Source of the DNA: Rhodobacteraceae bacterium REDSEA-S34_B6
GTDB lineage: Bacteria; Pseudomonadota; Alphaproteobacteria; Rhodobacterales; Rhodobacteraceae
Assembly (NCBI GenBank): GCA_001627925.1
Contig: LUQC01000034.1
Coordinates: 13,681-75,973 of the forward strand
DNA length: 62,293 nucleotides
Direction of reading: 5' to 3'
A program made the position numbers and the translations under genes. This document shows positions 2,027 through 8,640 of this stretch, piece by piece. The notes beneath the pieces were generated by a model, which did not search any database, was not told where the DNA came from, and saw only the letters and a list, made by a program, of their open reading frames with translations. Position 1 is the first letter of the stretch, and each line of letters starts with the position of its first letter.

Positions 2027-3055
2027 TTATGATTTATTTTTCTTTATTTGAACTAAAAAGAGATCCCTAATTAGCGAAAGCCAATTGAGTAGTCTAGACA
2101 CTAATTTGATACAGAAAGTTTTTAAAATTTTTGCAATCTCGTAGATTGGCTCCAAATAAAGATCCTTTATTCTGCTTTCTTTCCCACTCTCATAGGTATC
2201 TAATCCAAAAAATACTTTACCTTTATTTTCTGATAAGTGTAATGATCCAAAAACCCAATCCCATATTGCCAATGCAGCCCCAAAATTTTTATCGTAATGC
2301 TCTTCTGCAATGGAGTGGTGTACTTGATGCTGTGATGGTGAAATCAAAATATGCTCAAGCCATTTCCAATAGGCTATATCTATATGACTGTGTCGTAAAT
2401 TTGATCCGGTTGCGTGGAAAAAAAATACCAGTATGTTTACTCCCACGATTGTGTAAAGATCGACAGCATTGCCAAAAAAAAATAAAAAGCTTGGGATTAC
2501 TAAGCCCTGAGCAAAAACACTTCTTAAAGAAAATAATACTCCTTCCAAAGGGTGAACTCGGTAAACTGTAATTGGAGTCATGGTTTTAGCTGAGTGGTGT
2601 ACCTTATGTATAGCCCATAGTAGCGGTATTTTGTGCATCCATCGGTGGACGATGTACTTTGTGAAATCGTCAACTACAAACAGAGTAATTGTAAACAATG
2701 CAATTATAATACTGGTAGGAGTACTAGCGAAAAAATTTTGATTGAAACTATCTACGCTGTGTAAAAACATATAGATCGCGGTAGAAATTGCAACTTGTGA
2801 AATCAGTAACGGTGATATGAAGAAAGTAAACACTCTGTTGACTAAGAAGAGTTTATAATCAGCTTTTGCAGATCCTGACCATAGTATCTTTCGATCAAAA
2901 ATCTTTTTAAAAGTACTCTGCAAGCTTTGTCGTTTAACGAATAAAAGCCAAAGAGATGCCAGCACAACAGATAATATTAAATAACCTGTGAATACTCTTT
3001 TTTTTGGATTAATAAAGTCCGAAAGAAAAAATTCGATAATGTTAATATCATCCAT
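2027..3055 (-). CDS. Sterol desaturase / fatty acid hydroxylase family membrane protein
   Basis: A 342-residue integral membrane di-iron enzyme. Hydrophobic spans lie near residues 22-40, 78-98, 114-130 and 185-215. The His clusters of the fatty acid hydroxylase superfamily are present: HRWMH (137-141), HKVHH (150-154), a single H near 168, RHSH (221-224) and HQVHH (243-247), which together ligand two irons. Members hydroxylate or desaturate lipid substrates using O2 at the membrane. The substrate here is unknown; bacterial candidates include fatty acyl chains, ornithine lipids or carotenoids. It lies downstream of the DUF4856 gene on the same strand with a hairpin between them, so it is probably transcribed separately. 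The C-terminus is Lys-rich. Confidence 0.88.
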   Translation of the reverse strand: MDDINIIEFFLSDFINPKKRVFTGYLILSVVLASLWLLFVKRQSLQSTFKKIFDRKILWSGSAKADYKLFLVNRVFTFFISPLLISQVAISTAIYMFLHSVDSFNQNFFASTPTSIIIALFTITLFVVDDFTKYIVHRWMHKIPLLWAIHKVHHSAKTMTPITVYRVHPLEGVLFSLRSVFAQGLVIPSFLFFFGNAVDLYTIVGVNILVFFFHATGSNLRHSHIDIAYWKWLEHILISPSQHQVHHSIAEEHYDKNFGAALAIWDWVFGSLHLSENKGKVFFGLDTYESGKESRIKDLYLEPIYEIAKILKTFCIKLVSRLLNWLSLIRDLFLVQIKKNKS

Positions 3056-3119: not shown

Positions 3120-4523
3120 TTAATCAGTTTCTGCACTGCTTGCAGAGTCTAATTTATCTGTTAGCGCTTGCAAATCGTTAAGCCCATCATTTGCACGGGC
3201 TTTAACGCTAAACTGATCAACCATCATTTGCTGTATCTTAAGCATATGCAGCTGATAATCAGACCATGATTTTTTACGATCCATTACGAAATTACCGTTG
3301 GAATCCATGCCTGTTACGTAAGAATTATTTAGTGTAACTGGTCCGAAACCAATTAGTTCGTTCATCTTTGTGGCAGTTGCTCCAAGGTTACTTTTACCAG
3401 ACTGCATAGCCATAGCGAAACCTTTTAGCTCTCCCCAATGTTTTGCATAGGTTCGATAAGCTTTATTCAAATCATCGCCACTTAGATCTTTCATTTTATT
3501 AATGTCTTTGTACACTGAGCCAGCATATTTAAATACCGCTTCCGCAAGTACTTTTTCCCAATTTTCTTCAATTGTCGCAGCATAAGCTTTTAGCTGAGAA
3601 CGTTCACTGTCTGATAATGCATCTCCAGCTGCAGCGGTGATTAATTTACGACCATCCAAAAAAGCATCAAACATTGTATTGGTGTAGTTTGTAGATTTTG
3701 TGCCTGATCTATCAAATGCAGCTGCGTAGTAGCACGGTCCGAATACATATTCTGATTTAAGGTCAACCATTCCATCTCCGTTTTTATCGGCGACACCCTG
3801 ATTTTTCATTTTTGCAATTTCATAGACTTTATTTGGATTAAAACCATGCTGGTGAGCCGCTGCCCCCCAATATCCAAATGCCTCATCCCAAGAATGTTCT
3901 TTTCCAGTGTAATGAACTCCATCTTTGTATGGCTTATTATTAGGTTTTTTCTCTGCACTGAGTTTTTCGTCAAGGTAATTATCTACAGCCTGATTATAGG
4001 CCATTGCTCCCATAGTATATTTTGAGATCAATTGAGCCCAGTCGTATCCGGTGTCTGCATCAAAACCTTTATTAGATTTGGCTGCCATGGCTATCATATT
4101 ATATGCCACGTCTTTACCCGACATGTTGCCTGGCCATGCTGGCATAGCGCCATCATAAAACTTACCAGAGATATTTTTACCTTTTGAGATTTGGTGTAAA
4201 GATGTTTGCTTAATTTTGAATCCATCTTTTGATTTAGGTGCAATGATTGGAAGGTCATCGTCTGAACCATTGAAATATGAAAGCATCTGCGCTTCCAAAT
4301 CAGCAGCGTTTCCACCGCCGTTACCTTTGCCAGCTAATTTTTTTAGACTCTGTTCTAATACATGCCTTGCAATTTGACCTGAGTAAGAAACGGTATTTGT
4401 TTTATCTCCAGAGTAACCTTTAAGAGTTACTGGGAAGGGTCCATATCCGTCAGATAGTGCCATCGTTCCAGATAATGCTACAGCAATGATTGCCGTAGTG
4501 ACTTTGAGCTTTTTCATAATCAT
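3120..4523 (-). CDS. Secreted DUF4856 family protein
   Basis: A 467-residue exported protein with a typical signal peptide (basic MIMKKLK, hydrophobic core to about 22, cleavage near ALS-DG). The body matches, from memory, DUF4856, a family of uncharacterised envelope proteins often found near iron or heme uptake genes and imelysin-like proteins. Recognition rests on the N-terminal YSGQIARH region, the MSGKDVAYNMIAMA region and the C-terminal helical half. A DKNGDGMVDLKSE loop (about 254-266) resembles a calcium-binding loop but lacks the usual last acidic residue at position 12. AGGAG lies six bases before the first ATG. It is divergent from the hemP operon, which supports a role in iron or heme acquisition; the molecular function is unknown. 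Confidence 0.78.
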   Translation of the reverse strand: MIMKKLKVTTAIIAVALSGTMALSDGYGPFPVTLKGYSGDKTNTVSYSGQIARHVLEQSLKKLAGKGNGGGNAADLEAQMLSYFNGSDDDLPIIAPKSKDGFKIKQTSLHQISKGKNISGKFYDGAMPAWPGNMSGKDVAYNMIAMAAKSNKGFDADTGYDWAQLISKYTMGAMAYNQAVDNYLDEKLSAEKKPNNKPYKDGVHYTGKEHSWDEAFGYWGAAAHQHGFNPNKVYEIAKMKNQGVADKNGDGMVDLKSEYVFGPCYYAAAFDRSGTKSTNYTNTMFDAFLDGRKLITAAAGDALSDSERSQLKAYAATIEENWEKVLAEAVFKYAGSVYKDINKMKDLSGDDLNKAYRTYAKHWGELKGFAMAMQSGKSNLGATATKMNELIGFGPVTLNNSYVTGMDSNGNFVMDRKKSWSDYQLHMLKIQQMMVDQFSVKARANDGLNDLQALTDKLDSASSAETD

Positions 4524-4565
4524 CTATTTCTCCTATTTTGACGAAAACTTTAAAACTGACTATTT

Positions 4566-4593
4566 TTATCAACTTTATTCCACACTTTGTCAA
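4566..4593 (-). promoter_or_regulatory. Sigma70-type promoter for DUF4856 gene
   Basis: Read on the minus strand, TTGACA (4588-4593) is followed after 16 bases by TGATAA (4566-4571), about 43 bases upstream of the ATG. The -35 box is a consensus match and the -10 box a moderate one. The palindrome at 4609-4633 lies just upstream, where a regulator could act on both divergent promoters. Confidence 0.5.
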
Positions 4594-4608
4594 CATTCCC
4601 GATAAAAA

Positions 4609-4633
4609 TAATCAGGATTGACATTCCTGATTA
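4609..4633. promoter_or_regulatory. Palindromic operator candidate between DUF4856 and hemP genes
   Basis: A perfect 8-bp inverted repeat (TAATCAGG / CCTGATTA) has a nine-base centre, ATTGACATT, that holds a consensus -35 box (TTGACA, 4618-4623) facing the hemP side. A bound protein would therefore cover that promoter. Iron- or heme-responsive control is inferred only from the flanking genes. The site does not match any Fur, Irr, RirA or IscR consensus that I can recall with certainty. Confidence 0.5.
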
Positions 4634-4710
4634 AATAAATCAAGATTTAAGACAGCCAGCTCGAATCTCTGCAAGCTACTCTCCAAAATCAGTAAAGGGG
4701 CACAGTAGAG

Positions 4711-4863
4711 ATGGATTTTCACGAAGACAGGGAGAAGGAGCCAGTCACTGACCTGCAGGAGGTGCTTAGTATGTTAAGTACTTTAGGTGGCTCAGAAATC
4801 TGGCAGTTAGCGTGGTTAATCGACCGCGTTGAAGATAGAGAATGGGGAATGTCATGGCTTTAA
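4711..4863 (+). CDS. Small acidic ORF preceding hemP
   Basis: A 50-codon frame starting MDFHEDREKE and ending REWGMSWL, rich in acidic residues and Trp (four in the last 20 residues). An AAAGGGG stretch lies 10 bases before the ATG. Its stop overlaps the hemP start region by 10 bases, the arrangement of translationally coupled genes. I do not recognise the family. Coding is supported by position, the ribosome-binding-like sequence and the overlap; a leader peptide that couples hemP translation is the alternative. Confidence 0.45.
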   Translation: MDFHEDREKEPVTDLQEVLSMLSTLGGSEIWQLAWLIDRVEDREWGMSWL

Positions 4864-5027
4864 AGGTTGTAGATGAAGGCAAAAGCGGTGATGCTGCTAT
4901 GGAAGAAGTACCTACTTATGACGCCTTGGAACTTACAAAAGGTGGAAAGGTTGCAACCATTACCCTAGCTGGCAAGCATTATACCTTAAGAATAACCAAA
5001 GCAGTAAAATTGATCCTAACAAAATGA
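4854..5027 (+). CDS. hemP: Hemin uptake protein HemP
   Basis: A 57-residue protein ending in the HemP signature: Y-D-A-L-E-L-T-K-G-G, then ITLAGKHYTLRIT and the terminal KLILTK. HemP/HmuP proteins are small cytoplasmic factors encoded with heme uptake systems; in rhizobia HmuP helps activate the outer-membrane heme receptor gene. The start is placed at ATG 4854 because GGGGA lies 4-5 bases ahead; ATG 4842 in the same frame is possible. The stop overlaps the next start (ATGA), giving a compact three-gene unit. No TonB receptor or heme ABC transporter is in the window. The operator candidate at 4609-4633 probably controls it. Confidence 0.88.
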   Translation: MALKVVDEGKSGDAAMEEVPTYDALELTKGGKVATITLAGKHYTLRITKAVKLILTK

Positions 5028-5497
5028 ACGTTTCTCAAAGATCTCGTGGTGGAGCGCCAGTCGGGTTTCTCTCGGAACTTGGCCCAATTGAGGCTAATGC
5101 AATTACATATCTACGATTGTGGTGCCAAAGCGTGGACGCACACGACGCAATCGCACGAGATTTCCAAGTTGTATTTGGTGAAACAAGAGGGCGGAAGATA
5201 ACAGACAGTTTTGAGGCTCTTTGCAAGTTGTGTGTCGAAAATGGTCGGCGACCACTAATGAGGCATGGATTGGACTGCAAATGTTTTGGAGCCGATGAGT
5301 CTTGTTTTGCAAATTTCATAGGATATGCATCGGAAGGAGCTGGTGAGGATGCACTTATGATAGCTATGACGATTGTAAAGCCTGAAAAAGCACAAGTTTT
5401 AGCAGGGCTAGCAGAGGATTTTGGACTTGCTCTTAGAACCATTACAGCGAAATGCCAACTATCTGGTCAAGCATTTCATGGTAACACTCTTCACTAG
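5024..5497 (+). CDS. Conserved Cys-rich protein in hemP operon
   Basis: A 157-residue soluble protein whose start overlaps the hemP stop by four bases. The central part holds a compact Cys cluster: C-K-L-C near 66-69, then C-K-C near 85-87 and a further Cys near 93, with RRPLMRHG between them. Such spacing suggests a metal or Fe-S site. The rest is helical (YLRLWCQSVDAH; DALMIAMTIV; LAEDFGLALRTI). From memory similar proteins accompany hemP in Rhodobacteraceae but carry no function. Position implies a role in iron or heme metabolism, possibly sensing or cofactor handling. The gene is certain; the function is unknown. Confidence 0.75.
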   Translation: MNVSQRSRGGAPVGFLSELGPIEANAITYLRLWCQSVDAHDAIARDFQVVFGETRGRKITDSFEALCKLCVENGRRPLMRHGLDCKCFGADESCFANFIGYASEGAGEDALMIAMTIVKPEKAQVLAGLAEDFGLALRTITAKCQLSGQAFHGNTLH

Positions 5498-7509: not shown

Positions 7510-8520
7510 TCAACCGTCAAAATCAACGATTTCCGTTAGCTCTAAAGCCCTTTTACGTAATTTTGCTATTGTCATCAAATTTACTGCATCAGCGTCAAAG
7601 TCTCCCCAGCTTTTAACTAAGTCGTCTACTTGCGTTCCTGGAGCTATTGGATATTCAAAATTTGCTGTCGCATAAATTTCTTGTGCCTCTCCGGAGCTGA
7701 GAAACTCCATCAGCTTCAGAGCATTGTCTTTATTAGGAGAAAATCTGGCCATCCCTATTCCCGATACATTTACATGTGTTCCCCCATTTTCAAACGTTGG
7801 AAACACTATGTTAACGCTTTTTGCCCAATCAGTCTGCTCAGGATCTTTTAACATTTTTCCCATATAGTATGTATTTCCTATGGATAGATCACATTCACCT
7901 GCCCATATTGCTTTCACTTGAGCTCTGTCATTACCTTGTGGTTTTCGGGCAAGGTTTTTCTTCAACCCTTTCAGCCACTCTATTGCATAGTCTTCGCCGT
8001 GATGATGAATTATCGCAGAGGTTAGTGCTAAGTTATATGCGTTTAATCCCGATCGGATACAAATTCTACCCTTCCATTTTGGGTCTGCTAATTCTTCATA
8101 CTTTACAATTTCGCCATTTTTCACGCGTTCGTTACTTGCATAAATTATTCTAGCTCGGATAGTTAACCCAAACCAGTGACCGGCAGGATCGCGATACTTA
8201 CTGGGAACATTTCTAGAAAGTTGGTCGCTATTTACTTGTTGCGTAAGTTCAGCCTCTACCAAGGCAGATAATCTCGAGATATCCACTGTGAGAACAACAT
8301 CGGCAGGGCTTCGCTTTCCTTCTGCTTTCATTCGCTCAATCATACCTTTTCTAAGGTAAACAGTGTTTACTTTTATACCGGTTTTATTAGTGAAAGCAGT
8401 TGTTAAGGGTTCAATTAAAAACGGTTGACGGTAGGAGTAAATATTCACTTCTGACGCTGATGCATACGAACTAAAAAAAAGAGGTACGAAAAGGAGCGTA
8501 ATGTAAGCAAATTTTTTCAT
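7510..8520 (-). CDS. Fe(3+) ABC transporter substrate-binding protein
   Basis: A 336-residue periplasmic iron-binding protein of the FbpA/FutA type. The signal peptide has a clear hydrophobic core, with likely cleavage after ASA (20-22). The mature start EVNIYSYRQ and ADVVLTVDIS (73-82) are characteristic. The paired tyrosines in GNTYYMGKM (218-219) are the iron ligands of the family. The cognate permease and ATPase are absent from the window, so the gene is separated from the rest of its transporter or works with one elsewhere. A consensus-like promoter lies upstream at 8549-8577. Confidence 0.92.
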   Translation of the reverse strand: MKKFAYITLLFVPLFFSSYASASEVNIYSYRQPFLIEPLTTAFTNKTGIKVNTVYLRKGMIERMKAEGKRSPADVVLTVDISRLSALVEAELTQQVNSDQLSRNVPSKYRDPAGHWFGLTIRARIIYASNERVKNGEIVKYEELADPKWKGRICIRSGLNAYNLALTSAIIHHHGEDYAIEWLKGLKKNLARKPQGNDRAQVKAIWAGECDLSIGNTYYMGKMLKDPEQTDWAKSVNIVFPTFENGGTHVNVSGIGMARFSPNKDNALKLMEFLSSGEAQEIYATANFEYPIAPGTQVDDLVKSWGDFDADAVNLMTIAKLRKRALELTEIVDFDG

Positions 8521-8548: not shown

Positions 8549-8577
8549 AACTAAATATTTCCGAGTAAATTTGTCAA
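8549..8577 (-). promoter_or_regulatory. Promoter candidate for Fe3+-binding protein gene
   Basis: On the minus strand, TTGACA (8572-8577) is followed after 17 bases by TTAGTT (8549-8554), about 28 bases before the start codon. The -35 box is perfect and the -10 box weak, as expected for an activated or iron-repressed promoter. No clear palindrome overlaps it. Confidence 0.4.
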
Positions 8578-8640
8578 GATAAAATTTTTTTAATTTAGGC
8601 CGCTTTTCTTTCAGCTTTAAAAAGTTTTTATACCCTAGAT

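Follow-up and report, generated by a model that had tools for sequence, protein, structure and literature searches.

A divergent DUF4856-hemP locus with iron-box-type operators in a Rhodobacteraceae bacterium: a putative accessory of ferric-iron import

The closest described counterparts of the locus treated here are the iron-regulated hemP loci of Rhodobacteraceae, a family in which a 19-bp palindrome, the Iron-Rhodo-box, is located upstream of iron genes (PMC4618611). In Rhodobacter sphaeroides, the regulator IscR binds the hemP promoter at a site overlapping or near the -35/-10 elements and also binds the promoter of iscR itself, and hemP, irpA, bfd-bfr, afuA and others rise in an iscR mutant (PMC4618611). 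HemP-type proteins are regulators for which transcriptional or post-transcriptional action has been reported, and for one of them a siderophore receptor is a further target (PMC9131926). Ferric solute-binding proteins (SBPs) similar to FutA1 are commonly encoded in the genomes of marine Roseobacter strains (PMC4771312). The present analysis concerns a stretch of 62,293 bases (the window) from the draft genome of Rhodobacteraceae bacterium REDSEA-S34_B6 (2.4 Mb, 111 contigs, 95.5% complete), in which hemP and a gene for a DUF4856 protein diverge from a common intergenic region.

From its sequence, the locus is read as a divergent, iron-repressed unit in which the DUF4856 protein and a membrane hydroxylase would serve as an accessory of ferric-iron import through an FbpA/FutA-type ATP-binding cassette (ABC) transporter, a reading to which a probability of roughly 0.6 can be given. 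The DUF4856 gene (3120-4523, minus strand) encodes 467 amino acids and matches PF16148 with 39.8 bits (cut-off 22.3), the match being limited to residues 149-296 and to a part of the profile. Judged by eye, its hydrophobic N-terminus resembles a signal peptide, and the protein is thus putatively secreted. It is followed on the same strand by a gene (2027-3055) for an integral membrane protein of the FA_hydroxylase family (PF04116, 83.5 bits, cut-off 31), in whose translation the His boxes HRWMH, HKVHH and HQVHH can be read. On the plus strand, an open reading frame for a microprotein of 50 amino acids (4711-4863) overlaps the start of hemP (4857-5027; PF10636, 44.7 bits, cut-off 25; in-frame alternative start at 4842), and the start of a third gene, encoding a Cys-rich protein of 157 amino acids (5024-5497; hereafter CxC protein), lies on the hemP stop in an ATGA overlap. 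Because their starts and stops overlap, the three rightward frames read as a translationally coupled operon. The divergent arrangement of these genes (3120-4523 against 4711-5497) had already been proposed in a preliminary description made from the letters of the window, and it is confirmed here. Pfam matched neither the 4711-4863 frame nor the 5024-5497 frame. Further along the window, a minus-strand gene (7510-8520) encodes an FbpA/FutA-type ferric-binding protein of an ABC transporter (PDB 1q35, FbpA, E 5.5e-104; 1y9u, E 3.7e-89).

The operators were located with a 19-bp matrix trained on the hemP upstream regions of 27 genera from the same family, the genus of the window being excluded. 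Of 39 genomes of the family that have hemP and do not belong to the genus, the training set took the 27 with the best hemP scores for which loci were available; two of them (G068 and G088) carry DUF4856 elsewhere, and three loci from other families (L016-L018) were left out. A 19-bp palindromic site was found in 26 of the 27 upstream regions, with a mean best score of 18.2 compared with at most 10.2 in 40 shuffled sets treated by the same procedure, and the two best sites were 26-29 bp apart in 13 of the 27. When the whole window was scanned, only four matches scored at least 17, compared with an average of 0.65 in shuffled windows. Two of these lie on the hemP side of the intergenic region: box 2 (4626-4644; 21.3, the best in the window), which covers the presumed spacer in front of the hemP -10 element, and box 1 (4598-4616; 20.4), which is of the TGA-N9-TCA type. 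Both are 19-bp palindromes and they are 28 bp apart; when the gap was shuffled 2000 times, scores as high as those at 4626 and 4598 arose in 2 and 3 cases, respectively. Box 4 (8560-8578; 19.9, third best) precedes the ferric-binding gene by about 40 bp, and box 3 (4555-4573; 17.1, fourth best) precedes the start of DUF4856 by about 31 bp. No strand is assigned to the boxes.

The boxes recur in the genus, which is represented by 16 genomes, many only 53-81% complete, within a set of 147 relatives. Six genomes with the layout of the window, in which DUF4856 stands beside hemP, are referred to as clade A. Box 2 scores 16.6 to 21.4 in all six of them, and box 1, which takes the form CCTGATAAAAATAATCAGG in three relatives from the clade, is likewise present in all six. 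Box 3 scores above 10 in five of the six, the exception being G003. A further genome, G006, has hemP and no DUF4856 match, and since it retains box 1, this box can be assigned to hemP. Box 4 precedes the ferric-binding gene in all seven genus genomes examined (the six of clade A and G006). In the five genomes of clade B, one contig of which stops inside the hydroxylase gene, DUF4856 and the hydroxylase gene diverge from a homologue of the ferric-binding gene at 7510-8520, and the gap between them contains boxes in 5/5 genomes, the best scoring 17.4 to 21.0.

A perfect palindrome enclosing the -35 box of the hemP side had been noted in the preliminary description. The palindrome, TAATCAGGA-TTGACAT-TCCTGATTA (4609-4633), is real in that its 9-bp arms are perfect and enclose TTGACA (4618-4623); a sigma-70 scan found no promoter at this TTGACA, which counts against that part of the claim, the -35 assignment being made by eye and from the conserved position. 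The palindrome lies within a direct repeat with a period of 28 bp (4593-4619 and 4621-4647). ATCAGGATTGACATTCCTGATTAAAT is identical across six genomes of the genus, and the outer arm differs in G010; this identity and the rarity of the box 1 and box 2 scores in shuffles set the feature above chance. As an operator the palindrome was dropped, because two adjacent tandem boxes generate an inner symmetry by themselves and it is the 19-bp unit that recurs in relatives; it is a by-product formed by the inner half-sites of boxes 1 and 2 around TTGACA. A terminator-like stem listed on the minus strand at 4633-4609 is the same inner symmetry.

Boxes also occur upstream of DUF4856 genes of more distant origin. 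A search of 84,980 species genomes yielded at least 556 confirmed DUF4856 relatives. The 80 best loci were retained; 43 of these are non-redundant (less than 85% identity) and 42 of the latter, including two loci of the genus (L134 and L149), have 250 bp of upstream sequence. Within these 250 bp, a box scoring at least 15 was found in 24 of the 42 loci, compared with 14 of 226 intergenic control stretches (p ~1e-13, a value that is optimistic as the loci are related to one another) and 7 of 840 shuffles. In 21 of the 24 box-bearing loci no hemP was found within 7 kb. The genome-wide pattern search gave one good candidate box, scoring 19.3 near a TTGACA at a contig end (L252, 1501-1519); it lies inside nothing more than a frame of 60 amino acids, and its target gene would be located beyond the contig.

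By description, the boxes of the window fit the Iron-Rhodo-box, the comparison being of gene, promoter position, length and symmetry and not of letters. As in R. sphaeroides, 19-bp palindromes lie over the hemP promoter, whereas the neighbours of hemP differ, irpA-bfd-bfr following hemP there and DUF4856 and the hydroxylase gene diverging from it here (PMC4618611). The genome encodes one strong match to the Rrf2 family and a second one below the cut-off. The strong match is an IscR: it stands in the order iscR-cysteine desulfurase-sufB and has the PCPAV motif of the R. sphaeroides protein, but it has two Cys residues (15 and 140), the family being described with one. Gene order and iron genes as putative targets are shared with the R. 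sphaeroides IscR regulon. By analogy, IscR would be the protein that binds the boxes. Since iron-box-type operators are predicted for each of the two divergent promoters and for the ferric-binding gene and IscR is encoded, a shared iron-responsive control of both directions appears well supported, and of the shared iron- or heme-responsive control suggested in the preliminary description it is the iron part that stands. The iscR gene of the genome (L096) is preceded, 93 bases before its start, by a perfect Irr-like TTTAGAATTATTCTAAA palindrome in place of an iron box.

The link to ferric import is derived from the companions of DUF4856 in the best 80 of the at least 556 loci. The hydroxylase gene lies directly downstream in 75 of the 77 loci with room to see; the exceptions are L195, in which the DUF4856 frame is split and the hydroxylase gene lies further on, and a Neptuniibacter locus (L211), in which no hydroxylase was found. 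A ferric-type SBP is encoded within 7 kb in 40 of the 80 loci (16 of the 43 non-redundant ones), and no SBP, hydroxylase or DUF4856 match above 100 bits was obtained in 21 control loci without DUF4856 (228 kb). The common order in many loci is DUF4856-hydroxylase-SBP followed by a frame of about 490-550 amino acids; three of these last frames were checked and are permease-type, one of them just under the Pfam cut-off. The window SBP is FbpA-type, and the succession of SBP and permease-type gene is that of FbpABC/FutABC systems, from which these loci differ by the additional DUF4856 and hydroxylase genes and by hydroxylase-SBP junctions that are in frame. Gaps between the hydroxylase and SBP genes are mostly -4 to 63 nt, and in five loci (L206-L209 and L213, of which L206 and L208 are near copies) the two share one open frame, as seen with protein models built for this analysis and, for two loci, with Pfam. 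A true fusion protein is possible in these cases. The closest named relatives among the matches listed are uncultured Rhodobacteraceae and Marinovum assemblies; assemblies with AG- or AH- names are taken here to be single cells from the surface ocean. No DUF4856 match was found on plasmids, and in the open-licence literature, which leaves most subscription papers outside, no paper naming DUF4856 or PF16148 was found.

The same linkage bears on a different role for the hydroxylase, namely that it alters a lipid in a membrane remodelling under iron limitation, with DUF4856 as envelope partner and the ferric SBP only co-regulated. The constancy of the hydroxylase as a partner of DUF4856 would agree with this, as would its only NCBIfam match, OlsE, which at 45 bits is far below the cut-off of 475. 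The tight DUF4856-hydroxylase-SBP operons and the in-frame junctions, however, favour a direct link to transport, and lipid remodelling is considered unlikely.

Whether DUF4856 and hemP belong together at all can be judged from the same loci. HemP genes were found within 7 kb of DUF4856 in 10 of the 80 loci, corresponding to 7 of the 43 non-redundant ones, of which one is from the genus, and in several orientations. The neighbourhood proposed in the preliminary description thus recurs outside the genus. Among culturable relatives, the layout with divergent hemP is that of Cognatiyoonia sediminum (L148), and Ruegeria halocynthiae and Shimia marina have the DUF4856 and hydroxylase genes at other places. 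Both sets of genes could be chance neighbours that share an intergenic region and are each regulated by iron on their own: layouts vary, the divergent partner of DUF4856 in clade B and in G068 is the ferric SBP, and in 70 of the 80 loci, some of which end early at contig ends, the 7 kb around DUF4856 gave no hemP match. Against this, one hemP per genome of about 4 Mb would predict well under one such neighbourhood by our own estimate, compared with the 7 of 43 found, and chance adjacency is regarded as very improbable.

The preliminary description further assigned DUF4856 and the Cys-rich protein a role in heme handling. In its explicit form, the unit would handle heme, both proteins binding or transferring it under the control of HemP. 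In favour of this, activation of heme-receptor genes is known for HemP-type proteins, some of which bind heme (PMC9131926), and by hand count the CxC gene adjoins hemP in 14 of the 26 genomes in which it occurs beyond the genus. In the draft, a single TonB-dependent receptor was found. Its best NCBIfam match is TonB-B12 (194.5 bits, below the cut-off of 599.7), among solved structures it is closer to BtuB (E 5e-21) than to PhuR (E 4e-8), and its gene adjoins one for a BtuC-like permease, all of which weighs against the heme interpretation. The receptor also matches two heme-receptor models, at 125 bits (cut-off 324) and 117 bits (cut-off 317), and one binding protein encoded beside it scores higher with the heme-binding IsdE (63.5 bits) than with BtuF (45.1 bits), both below cut-off, so that uptake of heme may still occur. 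A roseobacter heme transporter is known to have its own receptor cluster (PMC5225302). Across the non-redundant loci, linkage of DUF4856 to ferric SBPs is more common than linkage to hemP (16 compared with 7 of 43), and this favours iron uptake over heme handling. As HemP-type proteins are regulators, one of them acting on a siderophore receptor, a HemP that regulates ferric uptake fits at least as well as one that serves heme transport. The proposed role in heme handling is therefore not supported, and the heme interpretation as a whole is rated as distinctly unlikely.

In the six clade-A genomes DUF4856 stands beside hemP in a place where relatives can have an imelysin (IrpA). Among the 16 genomes of the genus, DUF4856 was matched in 11, hemP in 10, the 157-amino-acid protein in nine and imelysin in none. 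Of the 36 relatives having both genes, 11 (hand count) have an imelysin gene no more than 2 kb from hemP; one such locus, inspected by eye, reads hemP-CxC-imelysin-porin-like-Bfd-Bfr-diheme oxidoreductase, with a second imelysin match thereafter. The two families are not mutually exclusive, as DUF4856 and imelysin occur together in G068, G088 and G090. With imelysin/IrpA and EfeO-type proteins (PMC3143127), DUF4856 shares that it is predicted to be secreted, helical and iron-regulated and that it adjoins hemP in some relatives, and it has an HxxE motif (H362-E365); it differs by lacking GxH and any detectable sequence relation. Homology to imelysin was not detected by sequence, as there was no PF09375 match and the hhalign probability was 0.6 of 100. 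In a structural comparison with the double four-helix-bundle fold of imelysins, the alignment with 3n8u (Z 5.1, root-mean-square deviation 3.8, 125 residues aligned) is at noise level.

The AlphaFold2 model of the DUF4856 protein is mostly helical with a mean pLDDT of 90.4. Possible metal ligands that are invariant or nearly so are E209, H210, D213, E214, E328, H362 and E365 together with many Tyr residues, and an Asp-rich D246-x-N-x-D-G loop is present; these conserved residues may bind iron. The DUF4856 profile matched no solved structure, and the VIA list for the model was topped by vinculin/catenin bundles with Z up to 9.0, which is below a meaningful level for helical bundles. For the CxC protein model, Foldseek gave no match at E 0.001 or better and the best VIA-align Z was 4.9. 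The CxC protein has seven Cys residues; of its Cys and His residues only H81, C85 and C87 are invariant in an alignment of 20 sequences, as part of the invariant motif H81-x3-C85-x-C87-x3-D91-E92. In a clade-B genome, the CxC gene is present in two pieces, one of which has a stop inside the match (L083, 6539-7100; L152, 12572-13130).

Several observations weigh against the interpretation of the locus as an iron-repressed accessory of ferric import. On the regulatory side, 18 of the 42 DUF4856 upstream regions lack a box scoring at least 15, the strict box pattern is not enriched genome-wide (25 matches compared with 29 in the reversed control), and several high-scoring matches in the genome fall inside genes. 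The putative IscR scores 142 bits, below the NCBIfam cut-off of 207.55, and its own gene has no box upstream (best 9.3), unlike the iscR promoter of R. sphaeroides. On the functional side, the ferric ABC system of the window is known here from its SBP gene alone, and five of the 16 genus genomes, one of them 96% complete, have no DUF4856 match. Each of the in-frame hydroxylase-SBP junctions contains an ATG before the signal-like segment of the SBP, some with Shine-Dalgarno-like bases, which would allow separate SBP synthesis. For the DUF4856 model, Foldseek likewise gave no match at E 0.001 or better. In the imelysin study, specific binding of heme or ferric ion was seen with neither of the two proteins examined (PMC3143127), so that the imelysin slot alone does not show iron binding by DUF4856; the same result also counts against the heme interpretation, as imelysins occupy this slot in some relatives.

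Upstream of hemP, a second layer of control can be suspected. The HmuP-responsive element (HPRE) has been described for the leaders of heme-receptor genes (PMC9131926, citing Amarelle 2019). In the hemP leaders of the training set, AGCCA follows just after the box in 22 of 26 (shuffles: mean 5.0, maximum 12), and two AGCC[ACG] repeats are found in 20 of 26 (shuffles: mean 3.6, maximum 10). A stem of at least four pairs lies between the repeats in 13 of 20 leaders, compared with 11% in shuffles, and the stem sequences differ; this test drew on 29 leaders (the 26 together with L148, L171 and L178), nine of the 26 being without a repeat pair, which left 20. Elements of the type AGCCA-hairpin-AGCC are seen in many of the hemP leaders examined in the family (L019-L045, L148, L171 and L178). 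With the HPRE they share GCCAGCCAG-like repeats in the 5' leader of an iron gene (PMC9131926), from which they differ in that they stand in front of hemP and enclose a short hairpin. In the window, a degenerate HPRE-like element (CAGCCAGC...GCAAGC; 4653-4676, plus strand) is conserved in clade A and G006, retains only one repeat and has a weak stem. Rfam matched no family in the window gap and only one tRNA across 16 hemP loci. The microprotein that precedes hemP has a W-L-[IFL]-D-x-[VIL]-E type ending; its 50-amino-acid form is found in all six clade-A genomes and a similar ending, judged by eye, precedes hemP in 13 of the 27 other genera and in L148, L171 and L178. No microprotein was found before hemP in G006.

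In the proposed sequence of events, three 19-bp operators (4555, 4598 and 4626) would cover two back-to-back promoters, and a fourth would serve the ferric-binding gene close by. Fe-S-loaded IscR, if it acts as in R. sphaeroides, would repress both directions when iron is plentiful. Upon relief, the coupled rightward operon would give rise to the microprotein, the small regulator HemP and the CxC protein, and DUF4856 and the hydroxylase-family membrane protein would be made leftward. DUF4856, as a secreted helical protein, may then capture or hand over iron or an iron ligand, and the hydroxylase may act on that ligand or on a membrane lipid at the same site. The sequences show the anatomy of the locus, the operators, the linkage, the in-frame hydroxylase-SBP junctions and the lack of imelysin matches in the genus; IscR as the binding protein, the iron response and all biochemical roles given to DUF4856, to the hydroxylase and to the CxC protein are what we infer from them.

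A more far-reaching proposal, which is tentative and rather doubtful as a whole, is that DUF4856, a membrane di-iron hydroxylase and FbpA/FutA form an undescribed oxygenase-assisted system of ferric import, in which hydroxylase and SBP share one frame in some lineages and which would replace imelysin in small-genome Rhodobacteraceae. HemP would in that case regulate ferric rather than heme uptake and would control its own mRNA via the HPRE-like leader hairpin. The leader hairpin and the microprotein would allow a direct test of HemP action where no clear heme receptor is evident.

An iron-box hemP promoter is of an already known kind; new would be DUF4856 and the hydroxylase as companions of ferric uptake under the same kind of control. 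This would provide a testable function, iron acquisition, for the uncharacterised DUF4856 family with its at least 556 relatives; many of the best 80 loci belong to genera regarded as marine. Across much of the ocean, growth is limited by iron. Ferric transport in marine bacteria is usually read from the SBP (PMC4771312), and if the proposed role is true, such operators at a membrane oxygenase and at a further secreted partner would change which genes count as iron markers.

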